A stretch of DNA of 64,000 bases, from positions 1 through 64,000 of the forward strand of contig CACAEJ010000002.1 of NCBI GenBank assembly GCA_902531515.1, given 5' to 3'. The position numbers and the translations under genes were made by a program. Source of the DNA: an uncultured Pseudohongiella sp. (lineage in GTDB: Bacteria; Pseudomonadota; Gammaproteobacteria; Pseudomonadales; Pseudohongiellaceae). Below the pieces are notes generated by a model. That model saw only the letters and a program-made list of their open reading frames with translations, searched no databases and had not been told where the DNA came from. Position 1 is the stretch's first letter, and each line of letters opens with the position of its first letter. Below, in pieces: positions 6,334 through 64,000 of this stretch.

Positions 6334-6541
6334 CAATGTCTCCTTTATTTCAAGGTTATCCTGTTTCGTATCAAAATCTTTTTCGCCGGACCTTGGTTTT
6401 AAGCACATGAGTCTACCTTTTTTCACTTGTCTGAAAAAGACATATCTTCTAAAAAATTGCATTTTCGTAGATTAGTTAATCCTAAGAGATCATGCGATTA
6501 GACAGTCGTTAGAGGCTCTGGCTTGCAATTGGGACAGATAC

Positions 6542-10677: not shown

Positions 10678-10904
10678 TCAATGTCTCTCCCCAAAAATCG
10701 GTAAGGCTATGCCATAATTCCGATGGTAAACCACGCGAATTTTTAGTCCACGATGTAAAATTTTTATTTATCTATTGAAACCCATTAATTAGGGGCGCTA
10801 GCATAGCGACCAAATCAACTCACGTCCAGTTGCAGCACCTCGAAAATGATGGCCTTATGACTTTGTTTTTTACAAATTGTTACAGCCTGACTCTGAGAAA
10901 ACAG

Positions 10905-31689: not shown

Positions 31690-31857
31690 AGGCTTTCTTT
31701 CAGTCTTTTTGTCAAGAAAACTGACAGTAAAATGGGAAGTTTGGCCGATTTTAGTACCTTGAATTTCTTGAAAAAATTTGCTTTCAGAGGTATTGTTTTA
31801 ATCTACACGAAAAGTGTGTTCGGGACTAAGAATAAATTGCCCACTTCGGAGGCGAAA

Positions 31858-34488: not shown

Positions 34489-34494
34489 CGAAAC

Positions 34495-35967: not shown

Positions 35968-35991
35968 CCCTCAGAAGCGAGGTGCAGTAAC

Positions 35992-36029
35992 AAGGGGTAG
36001 ATATTGATTTCTAATGTCTGCCCCTTTTT
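35992..36029 (+). terminator. Intrinsic terminator after DUF1501
   Basis: AAGGGGTAGATATT pairs with AATGTCTGCCCCTT with two wobbles, followed by a T-run. It lies 24 nt after the DUF1501 stop, ending the DUF1549/1553-DUF1501 operon. Confidence 0.8.
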
Positions 36030-36047
36030 AGTATTGAGAGAAAGATT

Positions 36048-41407: not shown

Positions 41408-42280
41408 TTACTCTGAAACGTCAACGCGAAGGAACCCGTTGGTCCAGCAGCAGTGAAATTCAAATCCATATGTAGGTTCCCTCCGTCGCTCGGTATCGTT
41501 TATTGCCTGGATTCGAAGTAGGTAACTTCCGGGCTGACTAAAGGTCGCTGTTGATTCTATAACCCCCTCAGAGACTTCAAGTCTTGCCTCAGATTCCGAG
41601 AATACGACTGCATTGGGGCCCTGATGCAGGGTCCAGTTAACCCATGTGCCAGGCTCACTATGTCGAATTCGAGCAATAAGATTGACTGGTTCTCCCACTC
41701 GGGTTCGTCTCGGACCCTCGAAGAGACCGCGTCTTCCCCGGAAACTGGGGGGGTTGTCATTCAGGCTAAGGTAGGGCGCTGAAGTATCTCTACCCGAGGT
41801 TTCTTCTTCGTCTAGCACATAAGAGGGGATTAGAGTTCCCGGAACAGACAACTTTGTGCCTTGGGTTTGTAAAGTCCATATCACGTCATTCATACCGAAA
41901 TTCTCGCTGACGATTACTGAAAAAGCGCACCAGTGTCGTCTGAATTCACGAGTTAGTTCAGGGTCAGGGATCGTGTCAAAGTGAGTTGGTTGGACGCCAT
42001 CAAATTCAGCGGGTTCTATAAAGTTTTTTGCGCCAAGGGGTACGTCAATTTCTTGTTCGAAATTCATATTGAAATATCCGAAGCAGAGAGTGAAAGAACC
42101 GTCGTCGTTGGGGAACCAGCCGTCAAAAAGAGGTACTACGTTTTGCCCGTCCGCACGGAGCGGTTCTTCGTAAATGGGGCTAAATACGTTTGAAGTCTGA
42201 GCAGTGCTCAAAGAGATGCCGCTCACAAGGACACAAAGCAGGAATCCTCTGCTTCCAACTAATCGCATCAAGATGTTCAT
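41408..42280 (-). CDS. Secreted CCWTN-motif protein, second copy
   Basis: 290 residues, signal peptide ending near STAQT. Shares with 9730-10677 the blocks VPLFDGWFPNDDGSFTLCFGYFN, GAKNFIEPAEFDGVQPTHF and the C-terminal FHCCWTNGFLRVDVSE; an Ig/PKD-like strand FSQPGSYLLRIQA precedes the end. The start overlaps the stop of the heme-PHM gene by 4 nt (ATGA), so the two are translationally coupled. That coupling is the best evidence that this family works with the heme-PHM enzyme. Function unknown. Confidence 0.75.
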   Translation of the reverse strand: MNILMRLVGSRGFLLCVLVSGISLSTAQTSNVFSPIYEEPLRADGQNVVPLFDGWFPNDDGSFTLCFGYFNMNFEQEIDVPLGAKNFIEPAEFDGVQPTHFDTIPDPELTREFRRHWCAFSVIVSENFGMNDVIWTLQTQGTKLSVPGTLIPSYVLDEEETSGRDTSAPYLSLNDNPPSFRGRRGLFEGPRRTRVGEPVNLIARIRHSEPGTWVNWTLHQGPNAVVFSESEARLEVSEGVIESTATFSQPGSYLLRIQAINDTERRREPTYGFEFHCCWTNGFLRVDVSE

Positions 42281-43611
42281 TGATCTCGCGACGCAGTCAT
42301 CCTCGCCTGACGTTTTGAGATTAGTTCTTCGTACTGTTCATCCGAGAGATAGGTAACACCAAGCCAAAGGTGCGACATTTCATCCACACCCCGTTGACCA
42401 AAAACTACCCATTGTCGCGGATCAGGATTGTGCGGATTTTGTGAGGTATTGTCCCAGGTCGAGGTAATTTTCAACATAGTGCCAGCTGGTAACAGCGGGG
42501 CCGAGTCTTCGGTAAATTCGTAATTTATTTGCCAGGAATGATCATACTTATCAACTCTCGCCAGCATTTCGCGACGACCGTCTGGGTATATAGCTTCAAG
42601 CGATTGCGCCCGACCTCGCATATGCATGTGGGGACGGAAACTGGTAATCAAAGCAGGTCGCTTCAGAACTCGGAATCCTTGTTGAGACTTCACAGAGTTT
42701 GGCGGTAGCAACAGGTCGTTTGCCCATAAACCACCGGGGCCAGAATCGGCAGCAAAGAACTGTTCACCCCGTGTTTGAAATTCAGGCTTATAACCTTTGG
42801 GATATAACCAAACAGCGGCCTCTGCCTGCTCGTTAGGCACTACTTCGCTGATGGGGAAATAGTGTAGATTCCAGTTAATAGTTCCCTCTGGGTAGATCAG
42901 CATACCCGTCCCTTCAGGGAATCGATCACCACCTTTTCCAACTCCCTGTCTGCCCACGGGGCCTGATGCTCTATTTCCGTTACCATCGTTTGATCTTAGT
43001 TGAGCGTGACCATGGTGGAGAACCTTGACGCCCAAAGGATAGGAACCTTTAAGTTCCGTCGCTCTAACATAGCGAGGTTCGTCAATCAGTCCTGCGAAAG
43101 ACGTATTACGAACCCACCATTGGTCCTGGGCATTGGCAGTAACGGTATAGGGTGGTGATTTGACTACGAAATCGGGCTCCCCCAATTCAGAGGCGAGTTG
43201 CCATTCGGACGCATCTGGCAGTTTTGGTTGAGCTGGCGTAAGTGCTGGGTCACCTTGGGGAGCCCCAGATTTAGCCCACTGAACTATTAATGAAACTTGT
43301 TCTTCTGATAGAGAGACATCGTTGTTATAGGTCTGAATTCCAACGGCTTTATCTAGATGCCAGGGCGGCATCTCTCGACGCTCTACCTTATAACTAATCA
43401 GAGGTGCCCAAGGTTGCGTTTCCTCAAAGGTAAGCAGAGACATAGGCCCAATCCCATCGGGATTATGGCAACTCACACACTTATCAAAAATTATTGTCGC
43501 AACATCCTTGCTATAGGTTACCTTCTCATCACTCGCCAAGGTGCCCTGACTTAATATCAGAGATGAAAAAAAACAATAAAAAAATGTTTTTAGCCATGTA
43601 GAGTTATTCAT
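42277..43611 (-). CDS. Exported cytochrome c / PHM-like copper monooxygenase fusion (copy 4)
   Basis: The track starts at 43749; GGAGG before the ATG at 43611 and the signal peptide MNNSTWLKTFFYCFFSS give 444 residues. Heme motif C45-VSC-H49 (CVSCHNPDGIGP). Copper motifs complete: KVLHHGHAQL, NWNLHYFPI, FRPHMHMRGRAQSL and RGVDEMSHLW. It is more divergent from copies 1-3 than they are from each other, and is an older member of the family. It heads the long minus-strand cluster and overlaps the CCWTN gene. Predicted periplasmic; substrate unknown. Confidence 0.83.
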   Translation of the reverse strand: MNNSTWLKTFFYCFFSSLILSQGTLASDEKVTYSKDVATIIFDKCVSCHNPDGIGPMSLLTFEETQPWAPLISYKVERREMPPWHLDKAVGIQTYNNDVSLSEEQVSLIVQWAKSGAPQGDPALTPAQPKLPDASEWQLASELGEPDFVVKSPPYTVTANAQDQWWVRNTSFAGLIDEPRYVRATELKGSYPLGVKVLHHGHAQLRSNDGNGNRASGPVGRQGVGKGGDRFPEGTGMLIYPEGTINWNLHYFPISEVVPNEQAEAAVWLYPKGYKPEFQTRGEQFFAADSGPGGLWANDLLLPPNSVKSQQGFRVLKRPALITSFRPHMHMRGRAQSLEAIYPDGRREMLARVDKYDHSWQINYEFTEDSAPLLPAGTMLKITSTWDNTSQNPHNPDPRQWVVFGQRGVDEMSHLWLGVTYLSDEQYEELISKRQARMTASRDQ

Positions 43612-43794
43612 TATTGCCAGCCTCCGAATCAATAGATATACAGAACTGCATCCCCCAAAAACAATGGCTTTAGCATAATTGTGCTTTTTTAAAAAGTCTA
43701 CGTTAATCATTGAATTCTGGTAATTTAGATAAGCGCTTCGATGCCTCAACGCGATAGTTGTGGAAATCCCAAAATAACGTGGTAGGATTACGCT

Positions 43795-47909: not shown

Positions 47910-49214
47910 CTAAATAGACAGACGACCGGTGGAGTCGCCCAAGGATTCGATAGGAGTTCCCAATTTGTCTAGCAGGCTAAGGTGCAGATTGGTCAGCGGC
48001 GTCCCTTCTGGGTATTGCAAATGATAACCCGGGTGGGCGACATCTCCAGCTAGTAGAATGGGTAAATTCCTCGAGTAGTGGGAATTGCTGTCAGCCATAC
48101 CCGCTCCATAGACTATTGTTGATGAGTCTAACAGCGATCCATTTTCATCTTCAGCGTTTTTTAAGCGCTCTAAAAATTCTGCAAAGAAAGTCACATGATA
48201 TTCGTTAATTTTGAGTAACTTTTCTAGTTTGACCGGGTCCCTTTGGTGATGTGAAATTGGATGATGCGCATCTGGGACTCCAATCTCTGCATAGGTTCGA
48301 CCGGTGATCTCTCGGCCCATCATGAAAGTGGCAACCCTAGTCATATCGGTTTCCCAAGCCAGAGCCATCATGTCGAACATCAATCGAGCATGCTCTTTAA
48401 AAGTATCTGGTATACCTGCGGGTTGCTCGACAACAGGTAACTCTCGATCGCTTTGCGCTTCCGCCATTTGAACGCGTCTTTCCACATCACGGACAGCTTC
48501 GAGATACTGAGACAACTTAGTTTTGTCGCCAGCACCCAGCTTTTTAGACATTTCGCTGGCCCTTTCGGTAACAGAATCTAGAAGGCTGGCGTCTTTGCCG
48601 AGCCGAGTTTTCCTGATAGCAGGATCTGTGCTTCCGGTGTCGCCGAACAGACGCTCGAAAATAGCCCTCGGATTATTCTCCATTGGCAGTGGTGTGGTTT
48701 CGTTTGCCCAAGAAATAGTATTTGTGTACGCGCAGCTGAAGCCCTCATCACAGGAGCCTGCAAAGTCTCGCCCATCAATTGCAAGTTCCAAGGTTGCCAG
48801 CTGTGTCTCATTGGCCAAGATTCGACCGGCGATTTGGTCCATAGAAATACCCGCTCTGAGATTCGAGCCGTTGTCTCTTGTGGATGCAACTCCGGTTAGG
48901 AATCGAGTCGATGCTCTTGCGTGGGGTCCTTCACCATCAACACCCCAGAGTCCGCTTAGGATCTGGACTTGATCTCTAAATGGCTCCATTGGTTTGAGAA
49001 TCGATGGGAACTCAAAACCGCTTCCTACCGTTGAGGGTGTCCAATGGTCCATTCTCATCCCATTTGGAACATATACAATTCCCAATCGGTGAATAGGCTT
49101 ACCGGCGGCATTGGCAAGTGCAGGGATCATGGCATCAAGTGTAGGCAAAGCCAAGGCGGCTCCTATCCCTCGCAATAGGGTACGGCGTGGTATCGCTTTC
49201 TTAGTAATTATCAT
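47910..49214 (-). CDS. DUF1552 protein with Tat signal
   Basis: 434 residues. The N-terminus AIPRRTLLRGIGAALALPTLDAM is a twin-arginine signal and the start of the DUF1552 family; PIHRLGIVYVPNGMRMDHWTP and QVQILSGLWG follow as usual. Later blocks include TRVATFMMGREITGRTYAEIGVPDAHHPISHHQ. It overlaps the DUF1592 gene by 4 nt (ATGA), the conserved order of this pair. The family resembles the DUF1501/sulfatase superfamily but no activity is established. Confidence 0.9.
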   Translation of the reverse strand: MIITKKAIPRRTLLRGIGAALALPTLDAMIPALANAAGKPIHRLGIVYVPNGMRMDHWTPSTVGSGFEFPSILKPMEPFRDQVQILSGLWGVDGEGPHARASTRFLTGVASTRDNGSNLRAGISMDQIAGRILANETQLATLELAIDGRDFAGSCDEGFSCAYTNTISWANETTPLPMENNPRAIFERLFGDTGSTDPAIRKTRLGKDASLLDSVTERASEMSKKLGAGDKTKLSQYLEAVRDVERRVQMAEAQSDRELPVVEQPAGIPDTFKEHARLMFDMMALAWETDMTRVATFMMGREITGRTYAEIGVPDAHHPISHHQRDPVKLEKLLKINEYHVTFFAEFLERLKNAEDENGSLLDSSTIVYGAGMADSNSHYSRNLPILLAGDVAHPGYHLQYPEGTPLTNLHLSLLDKLGTPIESLGDSTGRLSI

Positions 49215-51670
49215 GATTCAGTCCTCCGCGTGCGGAAAGGGGCACTTTTCACTATTTCTGTAATAATAGACGACCAGCGGTAGTTATCCAATGCTGCTGT
49301 TCGAGTAATTTCACGAATTGTTGGCTTATCAAAGTACTCTGGAGGGCGACCGATCGCGTAGGCGAACATTTTCTCTGTAATCGTGCCCACAAATTCATTA
49401 CTGCGATCTAGGAGTATTTCTCTGAGTCCATCTAAACCGTAGAACTGAGTGCCGTTGGGTAGTTGGCCGGAGGCATCGATAGGTAAATCGGCCTCGCCAG
49501 AATCCCGCCACCGACCAATTGCGTCGAAGTTTTCCAGCGCTAAGCCGAGCGGGTCCATTGGGAGATGGCAGACAGCACAATTTGGATCTTTGCGATGCTG
49601 GATCATTCGGTCTCGGATGGTAGCAGGTTGCCCATCCTCTCCTGCTTCTGGAAGATCAGGAACATCAGCTGGTGGAGGCGGTGGTGGTGTGCCCAAGATA
49701 TTCGTTAGGACCCACTTACCCCTTAGAACCGGTGATGTTCGGTTGGCGTAAGAAGTTGCCGTAAGTAGGCTGCCTTGTCCCAGAATTCCTCCACGCTGCT
49801 TCGCAGATATTCCTTCCAACTTAACTTTTCGGAAGTGACTGCCATAAATTCCGTCGATCCCATAATGGGAGGCAAGACGTTCATTCAGGAAAGTGTATCC
49901 GGCCCCTAGAAGGTCAAGCACTGACCTATCTTCTTTTATTAAGCTCTCAAAATAAAGCTCGCTCTCCTCTCTAAAAGCTGTTCGAAGATTTTCGTCGAAT
50001 TCCGGGAATTCAACGGCATCGGGCACAAGGCTAGGCAGGTTTCTAAGGTACAACCATTGTCCCGCAAAGTTTTCAACTAGTGCTTTCGACCTGGGGTCTT
50101 TGAGCATTCGGAGTGTTTGCTGCTCTAGAATTTGACTATCTTTTAACTGTCCTTGTTCTGCGAGGGTGAGTAGCTCTTCATCTGGAATGCTACTCCAAAG
50201 GAAGAAAGCCAATCTTGAGGCAAGCTCCAAGTCAGTAAGTTCATAATCTGACCCAGATTCTATATCCAGTGGATCCTGCTCCACCCGAAAAAGGAAGTCG
50301 GGAGATATCAGTATTCGCTCAATCGCTAGCTGAATGCCTGCGTCAAACTCGAATCTCCCATCGTTCCTGCCCATATGGTAGAAATTTAAAAGGGTATCTA
50401 AATCCAACTGCTGAAGTGGGCGACGATAAGCTTTATGTGCAAGGTTAGATAGAATCTCAATAGCACAAGCTTCTTCTGAACTTCCATCATTGCTGTTGGG
50501 GCTGCATACGAATATAGCGTCTCTGCTTGGAGTCGATCCGGGACCCAAGGTTTCAAAGGGTCCAGTGATTTGGGCAACTTCAATTGCTGCATCACCGTCT
50601 CGCATCTCGTTGACAGCGGCAGCAAAAACTGATTGGGGCGGTTGGAGCACTCCCTCCGGTTCAGTGAACCGTCGCACAAATGAAACTCCTAAAACGTGAG
50701 GACCAGCTTCGGCATCAAATCGAAGTCTTAGATTGGAATCGGCAAATAACATGTATTCTTCCCACTCTCGGTCGCCAAATTGATTGCCACCGTAGCTCGC
50801 CGGGGCCTGCAGAACGTCTGGTTCCTCACCGCCGACTCGAAAGGTTTCGATGAGTCTGCCGTCGAATCTAACCTCGATTTCGTGACGGGAGCCCATGCCG
50901 CGAATATAATTTACATAGTTTCTGTGGAGCCTAAGAGAGAGGTCATATTTTCCAGCCACTGGAAAGTAATGCTTCATTGCAACACCTCCCCGAGAGCCGA
51001 AAGGTAAATCATCGCTCATTCTGTCGGCCTGATTCAGCAGTATGGGCACCTCGTAAGTTTGCGATGCTGGACCGAGTGGGTTTTCTCCCACCGCCAATCT
51101 TGCTGTTTTTCTAGCAGCGGATAGGTATCTTTCCATCAGAGCCGGAGAAACTGTCAGAACATCTGCCATATTGTCGAAACCATAGGCATCTATGTCGTCC
51201 GCGGGTAGCAGCTCCTCGACATCGACCTCGATCGACAATAAATCCCTCACGGCATTGGCGTACTCTGCTCTGTTGAGACGATGAAAAGTATCTGTTCGAC
51301 CCGGGTTGGGATTGTTTGATGCTAGTGTATCTATCTCTCTTTCGAGCCATCCAACCAATTCGTCGTATGTATCTTCGGTTGGTTTAGGCATCTCCATAGG
51401 TGGCATACGCCTATTCCTCAATTGGGATAAAACCTTCTCAGGCAGGGCCCCGTGGGTGCTCACGTCCGATAGGTCGATATTCTGGAACGATACATTGGCT
51501 GTGCTTAGGGTATCGTTATGACAAGCCAAGCAGTACTGGTTTAAGGTTGCATTAAGCAACTCAGCACCTGATTGTGCGATGGATAAGCTTGATACAAGTG
51601 TTATCGTCGCAAAAGTTGAAGCGATAGTGACACTTCGGGTTGCTTTGACTTTAATTTCATTCATAATCAT
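49211..51670 (-). CDS. Planctomycete-type DUF1587/1595/1592/1588/1585 cytochrome-like protein
   Basis: 819 residues with a signal peptide. A heme-like motif YCLACHN opens the mature region; DUF1587 follows (FHRLNRAEYANAVRDLLSIEVD). Next come DUF1595 (LAHKAYRRPLQQLDLDTLLNFY), DUF1592 (YELTDLELASRLAFFLWSSIPDEELL), DUF1588 with a second CxxCH (CAVCHLPMDPLGLALENFD), and DUF1585 (TITEKMFAYAIGRPPEYFD). The gene is translationally coupled to DUF1552. Known as a frequent pair in planctomycetes; its role is uncertain, though oxidation or breakdown of complex substrates is suspected. Confidence 0.92.
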   Translation of the reverse strand: MIMNEIKVKATRSVTIASTFATITLVSSLSIAQSGAELLNATLNQYCLACHNDTLSTANVSFQNIDLSDVSTHGALPEKVLSQLRNRRMPPMEMPKPTEDTYDELVGWLEREIDTLASNNPNPGRTDTFHRLNRAEYANAVRDLLSIEVDVEELLPADDIDAYGFDNMADVLTVSPALMERYLSAARKTARLAVGENPLGPASQTYEVPILLNQADRMSDDLPFGSRGGVAMKHYFPVAGKYDLSLRLHRNYVNYIRGMGSRHEIEVRFDGRLIETFRVGGEEPDVLQAPASYGGNQFGDREWEEYMLFADSNLRLRFDAEAGPHVLGVSFVRRFTEPEGVLQPPQSVFAAAVNEMRDGDAAIEVAQITGPFETLGPGSTPSRDAIFVCSPNSNDGSSEEACAIEILSNLAHKAYRRPLQQLDLDTLLNFYHMGRNDGRFEFDAGIQLAIERILISPDFLFRVEQDPLDIESGSDYELTDLELASRLAFFLWSSIPDEELLTLAEQGQLKDSQILEQQTLRMLKDPRSKALVENFAGQWLYLRNLPSLVPDAVEFPEFDENLRTAFREESELYFESLIKEDRSVLDLLGAGYTFLNERLASHYGIDGIYGSHFRKVKLEGISAKQRGGILGQGSLLTATSYANRTSPVLRGKWVLTNILGTPPPPPPADVPDLPEAGEDGQPATIRDRMIQHRKDPNCAVCHLPMDPLGLALENFDAIGRWRDSGEADLPIDASGQLPNGTQFYGLDGLREILLDRSNEFVGTITEKMFAYAIGRPPEYFDKPTIREITRTAALDNYRWSSIITEIVKSAPFRTRRTES

Positions 51671-54734: not shown

Positions 54735-55907
54735 TTAGACAGATAAAAATTCTAAGGCTGCGTTAATTCCACCTTTCTCATGAGGAACTTCAGCAATCCG
54801 TAATCCCATTTCCACTCCGCTCAGTGTTCCGGCGAGAGATAATTCATTGAAGTCGCCGAGATGACCGATGCGAAAAATTTTCCCCTTCCCTTTGCCTAAG
54901 CCTGTGCCCAGCGACATGTTGAATTTTTCTAAAATAATTTTACGCAAGTGATCAGCATCAAAACCTTCGGGCATTAAAACTGCTGTGCAAGAATTACTAT
55001 ATTCTTTAGGATTGAGACATAAATTTTCAAGACCCCACGCGTCAACTGCTATCCTTGTGGCTTTTGCGAGTCTTGCGTGACGAGAAAAAACATTTTTTAA
55101 ACCCTCACTGTGGAGAAGTCTAAGTGCTTCTTTAAGCCCATATAGTAGATTAGTAGCAGGTGTGTAGGGGAAGAACCCATTTTCATTATTTTTGATCATC
55201 TCCTGCCACGACCAGTAATAGACTCGCGAAGAAGAAGATTTTGACGCGTCCAATGCTTTTTGACTAACCGCATTAAATCCAAGTCCAGGCGGTAACATTA
55301 AGCCTTTTTGTGAACCACCAACGGTTACGTCTACCTTCCATTCATCATGCTCATACTCACAACATGCCAGCGATGAAATAGTGTCAACCATGAGCAAAGC
55401 GGGGTGTTGAGTTTCATCAATTGCTTGTCGAATTTCTCGCACGCGGCTGGTTGTACCGGTTGATGTTTCATTGTGCACAACGCAAACAGCTTTTATAGAA
55501 TTCTTCGTATCATCGCTTAATTTTTCTTTGACTACTAAGGGGTCAACCCCCGATCGCCAGTCGCCAGTAACCCATTCGACTTCTAATCCGAGTTTTTCCG
55601 CCATCTGTTTCCACAGTGTTGCAAACCATCCTGTTTCAAAGGCTAATATTTTGTCTCCGGGTGAAAGCGCGTTAACTAAAGCTGCCTCCCAAGCTCCTGT
55701 GCCCGAGGATGGGAATATTACTATTGGGTCCTGCGTATTGAAAATGGGTTTGAGTTGCATAAGAATTTCATGAGTCAATTCAGGGAAATCTGGTCCCCTG
55801 TGGTCGATGACCGCATCTGCCATCGCTCTGAGTACGCTATCGGGTACATTTGATGGACCTGGAATTTGCAGGAAGTGTCTTCCGGCAGAATGGTTTACTT
55901 TGCTCAT
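54735..55907 (-). CDS. Class V aminotransferase (alanine/serine-glyoxylate type)
   Basis: The track uses GTG 55913, but AGAAGG fits ATG 55907 better (390 residues). GRHFLQIPGPSNVPDSVLRAM is the family opening; FPSSGTGAWEAALVNAL binds PLP phosphate, MVDTISSLACCEYEHDEW contains the ring-facing Asp, and VGGSQKGLMLPPGLGF has the Schiff-base Lys. Homologs transfer amino groups from serine or alanine to glyoxylate; related pyridoxal enzymes act on other acceptors. Cytoplasmic. Upstream of the GntP permease in the same unit. Confidence 0.9.
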   Translation of the reverse strand: MSKVNHSAGRHFLQIPGPSNVPDSVLRAMADAVIDHRGPDFPELTHEILMQLKPIFNTQDPIVIFPSSGTGAWEAALVNALSPGDKILAFETGWFATLWKQMAEKLGLEVEWVTGDWRSGVDPLVVKEKLSDDTKNSIKAVCVVHNETSTGTTSRVREIRQAIDETQHPALLMVDTISSLACCEYEHDEWKVDVTVGGSQKGLMLPPGLGFNAVSQKALDASKSSSSRVYYWSWQEMIKNNENGFFPYTPATNLLYGLKEALRLLHSEGLKNVFSRHARLAKATRIAVDAWGLENLCLNPKEYSNSCTAVLMPEGFDADHLRKIILEKFNMSLGTGLGKGKGKIFRIGHLGDFNELSLAGTLSGVEMGLRIAEVPHEKGGINAALEFLSV

Positions 55908-56010
55908 CTTCACCTTCTTGATTTTGTGAAAGCCAACCAGCAGTTATTAAGGGTTTCTGGTCGGGCGATTGGGGATAGATTATAAGCGGTCTTGTCGATC
56001 GGTTCGATAC

Positions 56011-57657
56011 TTATTCAGAGACCTTGATACCATTAACCCAAGTTTCTGTTGCTTGGGTTTTCCAAATTTCGCCTTCAGGAATCGTAAAAATATCTCTATC
56101 GAGGAAGATAAAGTCAGCTTTTTTCCCGGCTTCTAAAGAACCAATGAGGTCTTCTTGATGACCAGCATATGCGGCGTCTATCGTAAAACTAGCAAAAGCT
56201 TCTGTTACGGTCATTCGTTCCTCGGGAAACCAGCCACCAGTCGGTTCTCCGTCGCGATCTTGTCGAGTCACTGCTGCATGAAGACCCCAGAAAGGATTTG
56301 GAGATTCAACGGGAAAATCTGAGCCGTTTGCGATACGTGCTCCGGCATCAATCAATTTTCGCCAAGCGTAAGCTCCTTGAATACGTATCTCGCCGAGTCT
56401 GTTCTGTGCCATATTTTTATCGCTAGTAGCGTGGATTGCTTGCATCGAAGGTAAAATACCCAATTCACTGAATCTTTTGATGTCTTCATAACGAAGTATC
56501 TGGGCATGTTCGATGCGATGTCGTCGCAGCCTTGAACCAGTCTCATTAATAAGTCGTTCGTAATTGTCGAGGACTTTCAAATTCGCATTATCGCCGATGG
56601 CATGCGTATTTACCTGGAAATTCGAGTTCATGGCTACCCGCATTAAGAATTCGAGTCTTTCGTCGTTATAACGAAGAAGTCCTCTATTTCCTGGCTCGTC
56701 GGTATAGTCTTCAATCAGTGCGGCTCCTCTGCTACCGAGCGCGCCGTCACTGACTATCTTGACGCTATTAATTACCAATGTGTCGTCCAAACTTCTGTAA
56801 AGACCTTCATCCAGTCTATCTTGGTAAAGAGGGTCTGATGCTGAAAGCATCGCATTTATTCGAATCTGTAAATAAGATTCGGTTACTAGCTCTTTGTAGG
56901 CTCTCACTGTCTGACTATTAACTCCGGCATCATGAACACTTGTTAAGCCATATTCAGCAAGGGCCTTCATTGCTGCAGTGAGAGCTATTTTCTCATCTTC
57001 TAAGGTTGGTCGAGGAACTTGTAAACTGACGAAGTTCATTGCCGTATCTACGAGGACCCCTGTGGGAGCACCATCTTCATCGCGTATGATTTGTCCTCCT
57101 ACAGGATCGTTAGTACTTTGATCTATTCCGGCTAGTTGGAGGGCTGCTGAATTGGCCCAACCTGCATGACCATCTATTCGGGTCAGCCAGACAGGTCTGT
57201 TACTTATCAATCTATCAAGGGAGCTGGCAGCGGGAAAGTCTGTATTTTCCCAAAGGACTTGGTTCCATCCTCTACCTAATATCCAGTTGAGATCTGGATT
57301 GGCATCCGCAAATGCCTTAACTCTGAAAGCCGCTTCTTCCTCTGACATTGCCCCAACGAGATTGATGCGAAGGAGACTGAAGCCATAGCTACCGACATGG
57401 CCATGAGCATCGATCAGTCCGGGGATCAGGGTTCTGCCTTCACCATCGATAATGTCGTCTACGTCTGACAAAGAGTCCGGGTTAGATAAATACACGGCAT
57501 CTATGCGGTCGTTTGTGAACTTCAAAGCCTCGAAATTAACTAATTCACCGTCGCTGTTTAGGGTATACCCATTGATATTTCTTATTAATGTTGTATCAGC
57601 TAGGCTAGGGCTCGAAAGTACCAGGAGAACAAAAATGAAAGTGAAGGTTCTCATCAT
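56011..57657 (-). CDS. Exported amidohydrolase family 3 protein
   Basis: The track starts at 57708; the signal peptide MMRTFTFIFVLLVLSSPSLA begins at 57657, preferred (548 residues). LIPGLIDAHGHVGSYGFS holds the metal-binding His-x-His. Later blocks VNTHAIGDNANLKVLDNYE, RIEHAQILRYEDI and ANGSDFPVESPNPF complete the YtcJ-like set. It is related to 15012-16733 but that one is a lipoprotein. Substrate unknown, possibly an amide, imide or cyclic urea. Confidence 0.9.
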   Translation of the reverse strand: MMRTFTFIFVLLVLSSPSLADTTLIRNINGYTLNSDGELVNFEALKFTNDRIDAVYLSNPDSLSDVDDIIDGEGRTLIPGLIDAHGHVGSYGFSLLRINLVGAMSEEEAAFRVKAFADANPDLNWILGRGWNQVLWENTDFPAASSLDRLISNRPVWLTRIDGHAGWANSAALQLAGIDQSTNDPVGGQIIRDEDGAPTGVLVDTAMNFVSLQVPRPTLEDEKIALTAAMKALAEYGLTSVHDAGVNSQTVRAYKELVTESYLQIRINAMLSASDPLYQDRLDEGLYRSLDDTLVINSVKIVSDGALGSRGAALIEDYTDEPGNRGLLRYNDERLEFLMRVAMNSNFQVNTHAIGDNANLKVLDNYERLINETGSRLRRHRIEHAQILRYEDIKRFSELGILPSMQAIHATSDKNMAQNRLGEIRIQGAYAWRKLIDAGARIANGSDFPVESPNPFWGLHAAVTRQDRDGEPTGGWFPEERMTVTEAFASFTIDAAYAGHQEDLIGSLEAGKKADFIFLDRDIFTIPEGEIWKTQATETWVNGIKVSE

Positions 57658-58166
57658 CGGTTTGTCCGTGCTTCTTGGGTAGATAATGAGTTTATCACAG
57701 ATGTCCAAAAACGTTTGTTAAGCTGAAAAACGGGTGATTCGATGAGCAAAAAAAAGCCCGACCGCAGAGGCGGACGGGCTTAGAACAACGTTCGGCTTGG
57801 CCCTATCATGATTGCGAGAACAATCATAACCAGAACCTTTATTTTGCCAACTTTGTTCCCCCTAGGTGTTAGTACTTTTCAAACGTAGGCCTATCTTATG
57901 GGAATGGCCTTATTAAAACTTCCTAATTATTCAAATTTGAAAAATTTAAGTTAGTAACTAATACTTAAAAGAACGTTGAAATTTATAATCCAGATCACGG
58001 AAGATACTGCTCTTCAAATAAATTATCGGGAACTAAATAGACGGACCACTTGGCTAGGCTAACGATTTGGTTTTAAAATCTTGTTCTCTAGTTCATTTTT
58101 ATCAATATTCAGATAGAGTCACGATACAGGCAGAACAGATGTTTTGCTGATCATAGGGTAATATTG
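57658..58166. other. Gene-poor intergenic region with an orphan terminator
   Basis: About 500 nt without a confident gene. It holds a strong minus-strand terminator (57748-57781). Just upstream of it on that strand lies a 15-codon ORF (57780-57827, MIVLAIMIGPSRTLF) with an AAAGG-like site. The plus-strand half towards 58167 is AT-rich and probably holds the promoter of the nuclease-like gene. No other structure was recognised. Confidence 0.4.
57748..57781 (-). terminator. Strong orphan intrinsic terminator
   Basis: AAGCCCGACCGC-agag-GCGGACGGGCTT with one A-A mismatch; the A8 run at 57748-57755 gives the minus-strand U-tract. The nearest minus-strand gene upstream of it is over 1 kb away, beyond a plus-strand gene, so it may end a small RNA or peptide transcript. 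Confidence 0.8.
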
Positions 58167-58928
58167 ATGCGTATTGTTTTGAAAATTTATTTCGCTGTTT
58201 TGATCTTAACGCTTAACAATATTGCTTATGCGCAGGCATATAAGATCGGGCACTGCTACAACGGTTGTCCTGAGGGCGCAGACGACTCAAATCACTTAAT
58301 CGTGCGTCCAATTTACGCGCTTTCGTACAACACTACAACCAAATCAGCAGATTGGGTTGCCTACAAGGTTTCTGGAACCTCGATTGGAATAGCCTCGAGC
58401 TTATCTCGCGATGCAGTTCAGGATAATTATGTGAAAGATACTCTAACCGCTAAGGATTTTTTGGATTCGGAGAGAGTCGACTTGATTCGTTCGCAGTACG
58501 TATCTCTGATTGATTTTGCCGGGACCCCATTCTGGAGTGACGTGAATTATTTAACAAACAATGTCGCCAGGACTTTATCTCTTAGTCAAGGTGCTTGGTA
58601 TGGTCTTGATTGGTCAATCAGAAACTTAGTTAATCGGCAAGATGAAGTCTATGTGGTCACAGGTCCGATATTTGATATCGAGGAAAACTCTTTGGTTTTA
58701 CCAACTGATACGCCGCACCGAGTTCCTGATAGGTTCTTTAAGGTAATTGTAAATAACTTAGGACATAGTGCAGCATTTATATTAGCTCAATCTGCCGCTG
58801 TGCATGTTCATCATTGTGAGATGATTGCGACCATAGATGAGATAGAAGGCCTTACTGGTTTAGATTTATTTCCATCCCTAAACCCAAAATCAGGAGATTC
58901 TGTTTACTTAGGCCTAGGTTGCTTATAA
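58167..58928 (+). CDS. Exported NUC1-like (DNA/RNA non-specific endonuclease) fold protein, catalytic site apparently lost
   Basis: ATG 58167 (the track uses TTG one codon earlier); 253 residues. A signal peptide ends near AYAQ. LIVRPIYALSYNTTTKSADWVAYKV is the characteristic NUC1 opening, and WYGLDWSIRNLVNRQDEVYVVTGPIFD its later half. Where active enzymes have a DRGH motif and a metal-binding Asn, this protein reads RSQYVSLIDFAG and LSLSQGAW, so catalysis is doubtful. It could be a binding protein or pseudoenzyme. Convergent with the YajG-like gene. Confidence 0.75.
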   Translation: MRIVLKIYFAVLILTLNNIAYAQAYKIGHCYNGCPEGADDSNHLIVRPIYALSYNTTTKSADWVAYKVSGTSIGIASSLSRDAVQDNYVKDTLTAKDFLDSERVDLIRSQYVSLIDFAGTPFWSDVNYLTNNVARTLSLSQGAWYGLDWSIRNLVNRQDEVYVVTGPIFDIEENSLVLPTDTPHRVPDRFFKVIVNNLGHSAAFILAQSAAVHVHHCEMIATIDEIEGLTGLDLFPSLNPKSGDSVYLGLGCL

Positions 58929-58938
58929 GCGCTTACCC

Positions 58939-59478
58939 TTACTGAAGCTCGATAATAAAATAGTCATCATTTACTAACTCTCGAACCATTCTATCTAGTG
59001 ATCCGACTACTGCTGCACCGACCCCTTCTTGTGCAGGTACTGTTCCCCTGCCAAAAAGTGTGGTTTCCCAAATGGTCCTCCCTCTACCTTGCAAAGCTAC
59101 GTGAGTCCGGATCGTTAATTGAAGAGACTCTACACCAGCTCTATCGACGGTGCGAAGTTCTGAGCTAACGATCCGACCCTGGATTTGCATATCTTGATCT
59201 GACACCACCAACTCTGCGCCGCCGTGCTCTAGGCCTTGCACTAGGGCAATATGAATCATTTCACTCAGTGGAATTTCGGCTAAATATTCATCAGCTATCT
59301 GCCTCGGTTCACCGTCTCGGTCATCCAACACGTCTTCAATTTTTAAAGAAACGCTGATGTTACTAAAATCAGTGTTATGACTCCCATTATAGGAATAATT
59401 GACTACTAGCTCTTCGGCTGAGATCGGCGAAAAGCAACCAAGGCTAAATACTGTTATTAATAAATATCGGAGTTTCAT
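58939..59478 (-). CDS. YajG-like exported protein
   Basis: 179 residues with a signal peptide (MKLRYLLITVFSLGCFSPISA); the Cys is not in a clean lipobox. The pattern KIEDVLDDRDGEPRQI, MIHIALVQGLEHGGAELV, DQDMQIQGRIVSSELRTV and LTIRTHVALQGRGRTIWE, then VRELVNDDYFI, resembles YajG lipoproteins, whose role is unclear. Assignment rests on pattern rather than identity. It ends 10 nt from the nuclease-like gene. Confidence 0.55.
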   Translation of the reverse strand: MKLRYLLITVFSLGCFSPISAEELVVNYSYNGSHNTDFSNISVSLKIEDVLDDRDGEPRQIADEYLAEIPLSEMIHIALVQGLEHGGAELVVSDQDMQIQGRIVSSELRTVDRAGVESLQLTIRTHVALQGRGRTIWETTLFGRGTVPAQEGVGAAVVGSLDRMVRELVNDDYFIIELQ

Positions 59479-59612: not shown

Positions 59613-60803
59613 TTAGTGTAGTTCCGAGTCAGGCCACGGGGCACCTGTCCTATGCTCACTGAGTGGTTTAAGTCCCTGGAAAAGAAACTTTTGAGCACGT
59701 TTACCCTCGTAAGTTTCAGTTGTGTATACATTACCCTCGGAATCCGTAACAATGCTGTGTGTTCCAAAAAATAACCCCGGCTGTCTCCCGCCGTCACCGA
59801 ACTCGGCAAGTACCTCTAGTGATTCTCGCTCCAGAATGTGCACTTTAAAATTTGCGCCATCTGCTACGTAAATAAACTCTTGATCTTCATCATGGGAAAA
59901 GGAAATATCCCAAGTAGACCCTGCTAACGTCAAAGGAGCCACTTGACCTTCCTTAACAAATGTTCCATCAGGTCGAAAGACTTGGATGCGATCTGCCCCG
60001 CGGTCACAAACATAAATCAAGCCGTCATTTGAGGGCTCCGCACAATGGACGGGACCCACGAATTGTTGTGGAAGCGGGGCATTGGGATCGTAGACTACTC
60101 TTTCGTCGATAGGTTCATTGCCATAAGCACCCCAAAAACGTTTAAAGGCCCCCGTTGCTACATCGACCACTGCTACGCGCTTATTTCCATAACCGTCAGC
60201 AAAGTATGCCTCGTTAGCAGAGTGATCGATTGCGATCTCGGCAACTCGCCCGAAGGACACTGTGCTCAGGCTATCAATAGGCTCCCCCGGGAGACCAATT
60301 TCCCGAACAAACTGACCGTCTCGCGTAAAAACCAGCACATGAGAGTCACCACTTCCATTGCCTCCAATCCAAACATTTCCGTCAGTGCCAACTTCGATGC
60401 CGTGATTGGATTCTGGCCATGTGTATCCCTCTCCTGGCCCACCCCATGCGTTGATTAGATTGCCTGCACTGTCAAACTCCAAGATCGGCGGCGCCGCCGT
60501 GCAGCACTCCGCGCGACCTAGATCTAAGCCTAGTTCTTGACTCATGAACATCGAGTCTTGATCTCGATGAACTACGAAAAGATGATCTCGCTCGTCTATA
60601 GCGATTCCAATAGTTCTGCCCATAATCCACTTGTTGGGTAATGGCTGCGGCCAATAGGGGTCCACTACAAACTTGGGCGCTAAACGATCGTTATTAATGG
60701 CTTCGGCTGTCTTCTGCAAAGCTTGTTGGCTAATACCGAGAATGGTGAAAACTGAAATTAGTAAACAAGAGCACAACAGAGCATTTCTTTTTCTTTTGTT
60801 CAT
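59613..60803 (-). CDS. PAL-like NHL beta-propeller (peptidyl-hydroxyglycine amidating lyase family), copy 2
   Basis: The track begins at TTG 60827; MNKRKRNALLCSC at 60803 is preferred, giving 396 residues like its neighbour. After a signal or anchor region the six-bladed NHL propeller shows blocks that align with animal PAL: FVVHRDQDS (Arg), SNHGIEVGTDGNVWIG (zinc His), YFADGYGNKRVAVVD (Tyr), GPVHCAEPSNDGLIYVCDRGADRIQVF (zinc His and Arg), and FGTHSIVTDSEGNVYTTETYEGKRAQKF (zinc His). Predicted zinc lyase acting on N-hydroxyglycine-type amides or a related bond; other NHL roles remain possible. Confidence 0.78.
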   Translation of the reverse strand: MNKRKRNALLCSCLLISVFTILGISQQALQKTAEAINNDRLAPKFVVDPYWPQPLPNKWIMGRTIGIAIDERDHLFVVHRDQDSMFMSQELGLDLGRAECCTAAPPILEFDSAGNLINAWGGPGEGYTWPESNHGIEVGTDGNVWIGGNGSGDSHVLVFTRDGQFVREIGLPGEPIDSLSTVSFGRVAEIAIDHSANEAYFADGYGNKRVAVVDVATGAFKRFWGAYGNEPIDERVVYDPNAPLPQQFVGPVHCAEPSNDGLIYVCDRGADRIQVFRPDGTFVKEGQVAPLTLAGSTWDISFSHDEDQEFIYVADGANFKVHILERESLEVLAEFGDGGRQPGLFFGTHSIVTDSEGNVYTTETYEGKRAQKFLFQGLKPLSEHRTGAPWPDSELH

Positions 60804-60961
60804 CGTTACTTTCCCATGGCAGAACAAGGCTACTTAGTGCGATAAACAGTAACACCATTTCTTGAATAGAGAAACTTTAATTGAATTAGTGATGCTTTTC
60901 GCACGTAAAATTCCCGCGGTCCAAATCTTGGTTTGGTTTTGCGTCGGAAGATCCAGATAAA

Positions 60962-60995
60962 TAAAAAGCCCAACTACCAAAGAAGCAGTTGGGCT
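60962..60995 (-). terminator. Intrinsic terminator after the first PAL-like gene
   Basis: AGCCCAACT (60967-60975) pairs with AGTTGGGCT (60987-60995); the A-run at 60963-60967 gives the minus-strand U-tract, 26 nt after the stop of 61021-62214. Confidence 0.8.
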
Positions 60996-61020
60996 CTTGT
61001 TTCAGCTCTATGAGGAGTTT

Positions 61021-62214
61021 TTACAGCTCTTCAGCTGGCCATGTTGGTGCTCTGTCACGCACTGTAACTGGCTGCATACCTTGGTACAGGAATTTTTGTA
61101 TTCGCTTGCCTTCATAGGTCTCAGTTGTGTAAATGTTACCCTGAGAGTCAGTTGCTATACTATGAGGTGCGAAAAACAATCCTGGCTGTCTACCACCATC
61201 ACCAAATGTATAAAGTACTTCTAAAGATTCGCGATCTATTATATAGATTTTGAAGTTTTGACCATCTGCTAGATAAAGAAACTCTTGATCTTCATCAGGA
61301 GAGAAGTCGATATCCCATGTAGAACCTTGCGCTAAGGTAGCAGGAGAGATAATTACTTCACGAACATAGGTACCATCGGTACGGAACACCTGAATCCTGT
61401 CGGCTCCTCTGTCACAGACATACACTAGCCCATCGTTTGATGGAATAGCGCAGTGTACTGGACCACGGAATTGCTGTGGTCCGGGCTCGCCGGGCGTATA
61501 AGTTACGTCAGCATCGTCGTCTGGTCGGTTCCCGTATGCGCCCCAGTACCTTTTGAAGGCTCCGGTCGCAAGGTCAACTACAGCGACTCGTTTATTACGA
61601 TAACCGTCAGCAAAATAGACCTCGTTATTAGCAGCATCGATTGCTATTTCAGCGACTCTACCGTAGGACGTTGTGCTGTTGCTGTCCATCTCGGCTTCGG
61701 GGACTCCGACAGTTCGAACGTATTCACCGTCTCGTGTAAAAACAAGCACGTGAGAATCTGGACCACCGTTTCCGCCGATCCAAATGTCTCCATTTGGAGC
61801 TACATCGATACCATGGTTAGACTCTGGCCAAGTGTATGGAGCTCCTTCTTCTGGTCCACCCCATGCGTTGATGAGGTTTCCTTCCAAATCGAACTCTAAA
61901 ATTGGTGGTGCTGGTGTGCAGCACTCAGATACTCCGGAATACAGCCCGATCTCTTGAATTCTCATGAACTGCGATTCCGTATTTCTGTGAACCGCGAAAA
62001 TGTGATCTCTCTCGTCTACATCTACTCCAATAGTATTTCCCTGAACCCAATGATTTGGAAGTGGCTTTGGCCACAAAGGATCCACTAGGAAATGTGGTGC
62101 CATGACGTCGTTATTAGCCGCGACGACAGGCTCTTGCAGTTGGGATTGGCCAATCTGTAGAGCCGCCAAAGCAACTAATAGACCTGCTCCTATCAACACC
62201 TTGATCTTTGTCAT
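61021..62214 (-). CDS. PAL-like NHL beta-propeller (peptidyl-hydroxyglycine amidating lyase family), copy 1
   Basis: 397 residues, GAGGAG before the ATG, signal peptide MTKIKVLIGAGLLVALAALQIGQS. The catalytic pattern of PAL is visible: FAVHRNTES, H134 in SNHGIDVAPNGDIW, DGYRNKRVAVVD with the Tyr, H254 with Arg in GPVHCAIPSNDGLVYVCDRGADRIQVF, and H351 in FAPHSIATDSQGN. These three His would bind zinc, by comparison with rat PAL recalled from memory. It has its own terminator, so the two tandem copies are probably separate units. Substrate not known. Confidence 0.8.
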   Translation of the reverse strand: MTKIKVLIGAGLLVALAALQIGQSQLQEPVVAANNDVMAPHFLVDPLWPKPLPNHWVQGNTIGVDVDERDHIFAVHRNTESQFMRIQEIGLYSGVSECCTPAPPILEFDLEGNLINAWGGPEEGAPYTWPESNHGIDVAPNGDIWIGGNGGPDSHVLVFTRDGEYVRTVGVPEAEMDSNSTTSYGRVAEIAIDAANNEVYFADGYRNKRVAVVDLATGAFKRYWGAYGNRPDDDADVTYTPGEPGPQQFRGPVHCAIPSNDGLVYVCDRGADRIQVFRTDGTYVREVIISPATLAQGSTWDIDFSPDEDQEFLYLADGQNFKIYIIDRESLEVLYTFGDGGRQPGLFFAPHSIATDSQGNIYTTETYEGKRIQKFLYQGMQPVTVRDRAPTWPAEEL

Positions 62215-62274
62215 TTTTTTTCTCCTCTACATGCCCGCAAAATGGCGAGCTTACTAACTTTCAGAGCGAGCTCC

Positions 62275-62307
62275 GAGTATACTGACTTATGCAGAGACAG
62301 TATACTC
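62275..62307. promoter_or_regulatory. Inverted repeat upstream of the PAL-like gene
   Basis: GAGTATACTG (62275-62284) and CAGTATACTC (62298-62307) form perfect 10-bp arms around a 13-nt spacer; each arm contains the palindrome AGTATACT. It sits about 60 nt before the minus-strand start at 62214, a typical operator position. No T-run. Confidence 0.45.
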
Positions 62308-62484
62308 ACTTCGAAAATTTTCGGATAAGCCTTTGTAAGAATTTGTAACAAGAAAGACGATTACTATCCATATTTGCATTACGCTACGGTTTGGTTTTTT
62401 GAGTGAGTAGTACTAACTGTTTGTATTTCATGTAAAAATATAAAAATTAAGAAATTTTTTCGGACTAAATAGACTATATCTCTT

Positions 62485-63834
62485 ATGAAAAATTCGGTAA
62501 AAACATTCTGTCTAATTCAATTAATTTGCCTTGCCGGACTTGTTCAAGCTCATGATATTCCTTCTCGTGTCACTGTAAACGCATTCGTCAAACCTGAAGG
62601 TAATGAGCTGACTGCACTAATTCGAGTCCCAATGGAGGCTCTCGGAGAAGTTAGTTTTCCTTTGCGCGGGCCGGGGTTTTTGCAATTCTCTGAAGCGCAG
62701 TTTGCTCTCGATGATGCAGCAAGAATTTACATAACCGAATCTCTTAAGTTCTATGAAAATGGTGAGGAGTTGACGGAGAAACAGCTTCGTCGAACAAGAG
62801 TGTCTTTACCTTCAAACCGGTCTTTTTCGAGTTTTGAAGTTGCTCTAGACAATATAATGAGCCCTCCGTTGGATGATAGTACAGATTTGTTTTGGAGGCA
62901 GGGAGTGCTCGATGTGCTGGTGACTTATCCAATCCAGTCGGACGAATCTGATTTTTCGGTTAACCCCGAACTTGCCACTTTATCTGATCAAACGACTACG
63001 GTGCTGCGATTTTTAGTGCCTAACGGTGCTGAAAGAGTGTTTAATTATTTAGGCAACCCAGGTGTTGTAGAGTTGGATCCGCGATGGCATCAGGCAGCGC
63101 TTAGATTTGTGACTATGGGTTTCGAGCACATTTTAGAAGGGATTGATCATCTTCTGTTTTTGTTCTGTCTAGTGATTCCCTTGCGTTCCATGCGAGGGTT
63201 AATTCCCGTAATTACCTCTTTCACTGTTGCGCATTCAATCACTCTAATAAGCGCATCTTTTGGAGTCGCGCCGAGCGCTTTATGGTTTCCCCCTCTTATC
63301 GAAACTTTGATTGCTTTATCAATTGTGTATATGGCATTTGAAAATATTGTAGGCGTTAAATTAGAGCACCGCTGGATGATAACCTTTGGCTTCGGCCTTA
63401 TTCACGGTTTTGGTTTCTCGTTTCTGTTTAGTGAAACCCTACAATTTGCGGGTGGACACTTATTTTCCTCACTTTTGGCATTTAACATCGGCGTCGAAAT
63501 TGGGCAGATATTTATTCTAATCTTGGTGATACCAGTGATAAACCTTTTGTTCAAATACTTGGTTGATGAACGGATTGGGACGATACTTTTGTCAGCTCTG
63601 TTGGCCCATAGCGCCTGGCATTGGATGATAGAGCGGGGAATCACGCTAAATTTATATCAGTTCCAAATGCCAGTGTTCGATTCTCTTTTCTGGGCTGCAT
63701 TGATGCGTTGGGGAATGATGTTCATCGTTATAATCGCTGTGCTGTGGGGTATGTATGAATTATTCCGAAAGTTTTCTCTGATCGAAGCTATTCCAGGATT
63801 CGGTAAACAAGAGAAAATTGGGTCAGATGGTTAG
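62485..63834 (+). CDS. HupE/UreJ_2-family membrane protein
   Basis: 449 residues. A signal peptide and about 180 residues of beta-rich periplasmic sequence precede the membrane domain, which begins ALRFVTMGFEHILEGIDHLLFLFCLVIPL, the HupE_UreJ_2 hallmark with conserved His and Asp. VAHSITLISASFGV and LIHGFGFSFLFSE follow, with about six further membrane segments. The family is proposed to handle nickel or other metals, but this long form is poorly studied. It is divergent from the PAL-like genes. Confidence 0.8.
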   Translation: MKNSVKTFCLIQLICLAGLVQAHDIPSRVTVNAFVKPEGNELTALIRVPMEALGEVSFPLRGPGFLQFSEAQFALDDAARIYITESLKFYENGEELTEKQLRRTRVSLPSNRSFSSFEVALDNIMSPPLDDSTDLFWRQGVLDVLVTYPIQSDESDFSVNPELATLSDQTTTVLRFLVPNGAERVFNYLGNPGVVELDPRWHQAALRFVTMGFEHILEGIDHLLFLFCLVIPLRSMRGLIPVITSFTVAHSITLISASFGVAPSALWFPPLIETLIALSIVYMAFENIVGVKLEHRWMITFGFGLIHGFGFSFLFSETLQFAGGHLFSSLLAFNIGVEIGQIFILILVIPVINLLFKYLVDERIGTILLSALLAHSAWHWMIERGITLNLYQFQMPVFDSLFWAALMRWGMMFIVIIAVLWGMYELFRKFSLIEAIPGFGKQEKIGSDG

Positions 63835-63931: not shown

Positions 63932-64000
63932 ATGTTAGGTTGCCGCTTTTTTTGGATCGTTGCGATAGTTTCGACTGCGGCTTTGGCTGATGATACAGCA
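63932..64000 (+). CDS. Start of an exported protein, cut by the window edge
   Basis: ATG 63932, or TTG 63926 which fits the AGGGAG at 63911-63916 better. Only a signal peptide is visible (LGCRFFWIVAIVSTAALADDTA). It continues past the window, so no function can be given. Confidence 0.6.
   Translation, partial: MLGCRFFWIVAIVSTAALADDTA

Follow-up and report, generated by a model that had tools for sequence, protein, structure and literature searches.

PAL-like propeller genes beside redoxin-cytochrome c-PHM genes in an uncultured Pseudohongiella: a putative split PHM-PAL locus

Peptide-hormone amidation ends, in animals and certain other eukaryotes, with a step carried out by PHM and PAL together. 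Could a bacterial locus that encodes relatives of both enzymes, as separate proteins, use the same chemistry? The question is raised by a 64,000-nucleotide stretch of DNA from an uncultured Pseudohongiella sp. (the window, C2:1-64000 of a 1.92-Mb genome that is 67% complete). Two PAL-like propeller genes, PAL1 and PAL2, lie near its right end, and genes for redoxin-cytochrome c-PHM proteins begin just beyond them. We found PAL and PHM folds, full ligand and catalytic residue sets, and a conserved gene neighborhood in one family of marine Gammaproteobacteria.

PAL1 is a listed open reading frame (ORF) of 397 amino acids on the minus strand (61021 to 62214), and profile, structure, and residue conservation identify it as a PAL-like NHL propeller. 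PAL2, also a listed ORF on the minus strand (59613 to 60827), has 404 amino acids as listed; its likelier start is the ATG at 60803. The two proteins are 68% identical, and their genes are 193 bp apart. A sequence-only reading of the window had placed two PAL-like propeller ORFs at 59613 to 62214, and they are present as it stated. The motifs that it quoted (VHR, DGYRNKR, and CDRGADRIQ) and its histidines H134, H254, and H351 belong to the PAL1 protein; the other copy has H142, H261, and H357. PAL2 forms its own clade in the tree. A terminator-like stem-loop of 15 pairs, a consensus match only, lies between the two genes on the minus strand (60964 to 60998), so PAL1 and PAL2 may not share one transcript; three such stems were found in the region and 4.7 were expected in shuffles. 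The AlphaFold model of PAL1 has a hydrophobic N-terminal helix (residues 2 to 26), which suggests that PAL1 and PAL2 may be exported and located outside the cytoplasm.

Among solved structures, rat PAL is the best match to the propellers. A profile of nine relatives aligned with rat PAL (3fvz) unbroken over 57 to 373, with an E value of 3.3e-18. The AlphaFold model of the propeller (pLDDT 89.4) is six-bladed and of the NHL type. Rat PAL ranked first for this model both in Foldseek (E value of 1.1e-17) and in VIA-align 2 (3fvz; Z of 32.2 and rmsd of 2.8 over 296 residues). Drp35 and DFPase scored below PAL in VIA-align 2, with Z of about 24.5. However, the NHL domains of Thin and TRIM71, which are non-enzyme propellers, tied with PAL in Z. 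Therefore, the PAL assignment is carried by the residue set and not by the fold.

That residue set is near-invariant. We set the rat PAL numbering on the 3fvz chain by an offset of 491, after which six residues land on the expected types. The zinc histidines of rat PAL, which we take to be H585, H690, and H786, fall on histidines in that chain, and Arg533 is presumably a substrate contact. The profile alignment pairs rat R533 with R77 of PAL1, H585 with H134, Y654 with Y205, R706 with R269, and H786 with H351. In the HMM alignment, rat H690 is shifted by one residue from H254 (PHS versus PVHC). In an alignment of 64 relatives, R77, H134, R269, and H351 are each kept in all 64 and Y205 in 63; H254 is kept in 63, and the remaining row has an unknown residue (X). 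The predicted site of PAL1 is thus R77, H134, Y205, H254, R269, and H351, and that of PAL2 is R88, H142, Y213, H261, R276, and H357. Accordingly, the zinc-ligand and catalytic positions claimed by the sequence-only reading do fall on those of PAL. An excerpt of PMC10303134 names the Tyr/Arg pair, Tyr651/Arg703 in the human enzyme, as PAL's catalytic dyad. By this comparison, both propellers carry a complete predicted PAL active site, made up of three putative zinc histidines, the Tyr/Arg dyad, and a second Arg.

Two other rat PAL positions differ. Asp787, which we assume to be part of the structural calcium site, corresponds to Ser in 58/64 relatives and to Asp in only one, and Met784 is not kept among the relatives. 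Because the calcium-site Asp is lost, we classified the propellers as PAL-like and not as PAL itself. A vicinal Cys-Cys pair (C98-C99 of PAL1) lies in a loop past R77 and is kept in 61/64 relatives; it is missing from the Priestia form, the Bradyrhizobium form, and L003. NCBIfam gave the propellers no name; its best match, ScyF, was far under the cut-off.

The nearest PHM genes adjoin this propeller pair. The sequence-only reading had linked the propellers to PHM-like genes 16 to 50 kb away. Such distant copies exist, but the nearest PHM gene has its start at 63932, roughly 1.7 kb away from that of PAL1. This gene, PHM gene A, lies on the plus strand with its first codons in the window (63932 to 64000), and reading the contig for 18 kb on from 62000 placed its end at C2 65692. 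An alternative start is the TTG at 63818. PHM gene B follows it outside the window (C2 65775-67535), and a CstA-like gene comes next. Both genes encode redoxin-cytochrome c-PHM proteins with the motifs VLHH, a lone His, R-x-HMH, and DEM. With PHM genes right beside the PAL genes, the link is stronger than could be seen in the sequence-only reading. Its PAL-PHM interpretation finds partial support, but the PHM link now runs to the adjacent locus and not to the distant copies.

The PHM assignment comes from fold comparison and Pfam, since our PHM profile, whole or as the PHM part alone, matched no PHM chain among the Protein Data Bank (PDB) sequences in HMMER. The model of a PHM gene B orthologue (L092) superposed on rat PHM with a Z of 21.9 over 245 residues at 2.4 Å, and Foldseek matched it to PHM (E value of 2.3e-12) and DBH (E value of 5.2e-14). 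The N-terminal part of the model matches thioredoxin-like proteins. Pfam Cu2_monoox_C was found in 44 of 47 PHM members at E values up to 1. For the two HupE-linked PHM genes it scored 24.5 and 23.5 bits on DNA stretches and 20.9 and 20.7 bits as whole proteins (cut-off 23). We take the CuH ligands (HH, H) and the CuM ligands (HxH, M) to be those of rat PHM, paired with the 47-member alignment by motif order and not by superposition. Each ligand is present in 46 to 47 of the 47 members, and CxxCH is present in all 47. The HxH exception is a protein of the window (10830 to 12581). Arg240 of rat PHM, two residues before HxH, is presumably a carboxylate anchor. Its position holds Arg in 30 members, Gly in 11, Ala in 5, and His in 1. 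Both HupE-linked genes of the window's own genome have Arg there, but the HupE-linked PHM has Ala in L097, L099, and L100. A substrate with a carboxylate is therefore plausible for some members and need not apply to every one.

The gene between the propellers and the PHM pair encodes a HupE/UreJ family membrane protein (Pfam HupE_UreJ_2; 62485 to 63834, plus strand). It is divergent from PAL1, has the two PHM genes downstream, and is the most conserved neighbor of PAL1. The 270-bp intergenic stretch between the divergent genes (62215 to 62484) has promoter-like matches no more often than expected by chance. Among 78 named loci of near relatives, on which all conserved-neighbor counts rest, a HupE homologue occurs in 52 and a redoxin-PHM homologue in 46. 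The titles of these relatives read OM182, Pseudohongiella, SAR86-cluster, or just Gammaproteobacteria/Pseudomonadales, and nearly all are metagenome-assembled genomes. By profile, 37 of 44 testable HupE genes have a PHM gene at most 4.5 kb behind them on the same strand, and 22 of these have two; eight further HupE genes without enough flank stand outside the 44. HupE genes without a following PHM are those of L054, L055, L069, L080, L114, L117, and L118. We counted L114, L117, L118, and L119 as one lineage, because their PALs are nearly identical despite two phylum labels.

Linkage extends to other PAL genes. Among 116 strong PAL ORFs from loci L037 to L138, a PHM gene lies within 3 kb of 55, HupE within 3 kb of 73, and HupE within 500 bp of 53. 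One PAL paralog that does not belong to the PAL1 clade has a cytochrome c-PHM gene downstream on the same strand, 42 bp away in L094 and 71 bp away in L098, and another PAL in L120 has one 365 bp downstream. These three are more independent cases of linkage. We also compared PAL-PHM proximity with circular shifts in G025 and in contigs C2 and C3 of G012, leaving aside C1, C4, and G029; shared islands of exported enzymes were not controlled for. In G025, a single contig, three of five strong PALs have a PHM gene no more than 3 kb away, which was reached in 59 of 20000 shifts. For PAL-like genes of at least 100 bits the count was 6/16 (16 of 20000 shifts). A test with the main cluster removed gave 4/26 (283 of 20000 shifts).

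Both families were matched in 37/37 genomes of the genus; the PAL match was weak in three, all incomplete (G001, G008, and G015). Eight genomes with near PAL relatives, hand-picked and not random, and one of them labeled Gemmatimonadetes, gave full-length PHM-type proteins in seven and a fragment in the eighth. The co-occurrence of PAL and PHM that the sequence-only reading asked to have examined holds for the genus (37/37, against 0/21 genomes of other families), but the two do not track each other across the phylum.

Because the PHM and PAL active sites both appear complete, the simplest reading is hydroxylation by PHM and then cleavage by PAL. We favor, with moderate confidence, the proposal that PAL1 and PAL2 are PAL-type lyases outside the cytoplasm that act on a carbinolamide from the neighboring redoxin-cytochrome c-PHM enzymes. 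The two-copper PHM domain would hydroxylate the alpha carbon of a glycine-like group on an amide nitrogen. Electrons would enter through the fused heme, and perhaps the redoxin domain, and not from ascorbate; the presence of these two fused domains suggests a supply from the cytochrome chain. PAL1 and PAL2 would cleave the N-C bond of the alpha-hydroxy-glycine-like product to give an amide and glyoxylate. HupE/UreJ may move the metal of one of these two enzymes, a role suggested by its family name. In this scheme we infer the reaction, the metal identity, the electron route, the substrate, the role of HupE, the location, and the order of action from PHM to PAL. The overall process is best read as a two-step oxidative N-dealkylation outside the cytoplasm. 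The products may form one pathway, and its outcome could be either peptide amidation or catabolic N-dealkylation. In the known system, as outlined in an excerpt of PMC12636437, PHM makes the alpha-hydroxylated glycine and PAL yields the amide and glyoxylate.

Several results weigh against this proposal. The synteny mostly reflects a single inherited locus and not a set of independent events, and the neighbor clustering around 12 PAL genes (L037 and L122 to L132) is just inherited synteny among close relatives. Outside the main cluster of G012, proximity was not significant (1/3 within 3 kb on C2 and 0/8 on C3). Among 21 genomes that belong to the order but to other families, none had this kind of PHM, and PAL-like matches were at most marginal and in two genomes; the co-occurrence thus represents one clade. 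A sample of the phylum (349 genomes) yielded PAL-like proteins (E values up to 1e-25) in 24 genomes, redoxin-PHM proteins in three, and Pfam PF03712 matches in two; PAL and PHM occurred together only in the window's own genome. Of the 23 other genomes with PAL, 16 supplied 17 PAL regions, and none of these regions contained PHM or HupE; a Methylobacterium locus (L037) had neither. HupE-PAL pairs without PHM occur in L038, L039, L114, L117, and L118. Pairs of this kind include those on Skermanella and Indioceanicola plasmids (Azospirillaceae), where HupE/UreJ adjoins PAL-like genes with no PHM near; a PHM search of the plasmid records gave no match. Such pairs suggest that HupE rather than PHM may be the older partner. 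No ORF in loci L037 to L138 matched both profiles, as a PAL-PHM fusion would. The loss of the calcium-site Asp and the variable Arg240 position point the same way.

These results leave room for other explanations. The propellers could be PAL-type lyases independent of these PHM genes, acting on carbinolamides or related alpha-hydroxy compounds that come from other oxygenases or from uptake, with the closeness of PHM reflecting islands of exported oxidoreductases. We consider this unlikely, though it is the strongest of the alternatives. Full-site PAL-like proteins do exist that have no PHM close by, or whose genomes have none of this kind. Moreover, four genomes of the genus have 15 to 38 PHM-profile matches each, so chance PAL-PHM neighbors should not be rare, and the circular-shift test leaves shared islands uncontrolled. 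Independence is harder to reconcile with a PHM gene following 37/44 of the HupE genes next to PAL, or with the cytochrome c-PHM gene 42 to 71 bp behind the second PAL paralog.

A different use of the same metal site would make the propeller a metal-binding partner of the HupE/UreJ transporter, in capture or delivery, without lyase activity. The proximity of HupE to many strong PAL ORFs (within 500 bp of 53/116) and the HupE-PAL neighbors without PHM, as on the two Azospirillaceae plasmids, fit this idea. However, Tyr205, Arg77, and Arg269, whose equivalents in PAL we assume not to be zinc ligands, are as conserved as the histidines, and 17 PAL regions lack HupE; we regard it as improbable. Least credible, in our view, is a generic NHL or SMP-30/gluconolactonase-like propeller that resembles PAL by fold only. 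Pfam SGL scores 27.0 bits on PAL1, just above the cut-off of 26.3, and 20.2 bits on PAL2, and the tie of Thin and TRIM71 with PAL also speaks for a shared fold. In contrast, all six PAL site residues are near-invariant here, whereas in the alignments Thin and TRIM71 have Arg or Trp in place of the last histidine, and Drp35 and DFPase score lower.

A second class of propeller adds to the PAL-type picture. In 10 of 25 weak ORFs of the PAL family, Tyr654 is replaced by His and His786 by Glu, and R533, H585, H690, and R706 are kept. These swapped-site ORFs are in L004, L006, L007 (the window's own genome), L090 (7173-8324), L091 (7270-8310), L097, L099, L100, L102, and L108 (7250-8290). The L004 variant has a cytochrome c-PHM gene about 0.8 kb away on contig C70, and those in L090, L091, and L108 sit between redoxin-PHM and HupE. 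They are candidate His-His-carboxylate relatives of PAL.

The PHM-like proteins show a large expansion in the window's own genome and in G025, G012, and G029, with 15, 38, 29, and 28 PHM-profile matches, respectively (some being pieces of one gene); PAL-profile matches number 9 to 29 in the four counted genomes. In the window, a cytochrome c-PHM-like protein on the minus strand (42277 to 43749) has all copper-ligand motifs (VLHH, LHYFP, RPHMHMRG, and DEMSH). Three tandem cytochrome c-PHM-like copies, also on the minus strand (4978 to 6462, 6624 to 7973, and 8164 to 9510), have complete copper motifs. This closely similar trio adjoins gluconate-2-dehydrogenase-subunit-3-like and GMC oxidoreductase genes. 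In the redoxin-cytochrome c-PHM-like protein at 10830 to 12581 (plus strand), the CuM His-x-His is replaced by R and N, although the CuH ligands and the Met are retained.

On the other side of the propellers, conserved neighbors include an LptE-like protein (58939 to 59478, minus strand; 54/78 loci), a DNA/RNA non-specific endonuclease family protein (58164 to 58928, plus strand; 39/78), and an amidohydrolase (Amidohydro_3; 56011 to 57708, minus strand; 33/78). A class V aminotransferase (54735 to 55913, minus strand), about 5 kb off, is a possible user of glyoxylate; its best NCBIfam match is BhcA. We hold this idea as a lead only, because its score against the BhcA aspartate-glyoxylate aminotransferase model (415.9) is under the cut-off (650) and it is near PAL in just 11/78 loci. 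A GntP-type permease gene adjoins it. Elsewhere, 31732 to 38150 and 47910 to 51670 hold DUF1549/DUF1553, DUF1501, DUF1592/DUF1552, and PQQ dehydrogenase-like genes; some of the Pfam names in these two stretches refer to planctomycetes, yet the host is a gammaproteobacterium.

How does the locus compare with known systems? The bacterial propellers share with rat PAL the six blades, the three zinc-histidine positions, the Tyr/Arg dyad, and the second Arg. However, they are separate proteins, about 20% identical to it and with no PHM fused, and most differ in having Ser for Asp787 and in the Cys-Cys loop. The neighboring proteins share with PHM and DBH the two-domain (paired jelly-roll) PHM fold and the HH, H, HxH, and M motifs, but they carry fused N-terminal redoxin and CxxCH cytochrome c domains. 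Bifunctional PAM holds PHM and PAL in one polypeptide, whereas the bacterial proteins are separate. The locus is a putative split, heme-fused variant of known chemistry. Propellers of Priestia (L040) and Bradyrhizobium (L041) belong to the same superfamily and have the same six residues, but they are only about 25 to 32% identical, and no PHM or HupE is among their annotated neighbors.

Bacterial routes of similar logic use other enzymes. Methylguanidine demethylation by MdgH and MdgL likewise joins a hydroxylation to a hemiaminal lyase, but with a 2-oxoglutarate dioxygenase and a lyase that, in the excerpted text of PMC12508155, has no sequence homology to PAL. In RiPP biosynthesis, the HEXXH enzymes PosC and PflC and the enzyme MovX provide a bacterial oxidative route to C-terminal amides (PMC12636437), but these oxidative enzymes are of a different and unrelated kind. 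Our literature search found no report of a bacterial PHM-PAL locus; it covered subscription journals thinly, so this is a weak sign of novelty.

A wider picture is nearly as plausible as not, and we offer it tentatively. In a split bacterial PHM-PAL system, copper hydroxylases fused to heme and redoxin domains may act outside the cytoplasm with separate lyases, and together they would break glycine-like amides oxidatively into amide and glyoxylate. The system would be expanded (15 to 38 PHM-profile and 9 to 29 PAL-profile matches in four genomes), would include a second, His-His-Glu class of PAL, and would represent a stand-alone arrangement of the kind that could have given rise to the fused animal PAM. 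A conserved bacterial locus with both halves and intact active sites, and with a fused heme presumably replacing ascorbate, would be tractable for the study of electron delivery to the PHM coppers. If true, this reading would bear on the origin of PAM, and it would suggest a route by which marine bacteria may cleave N-alkylated or glycine-capped amides.

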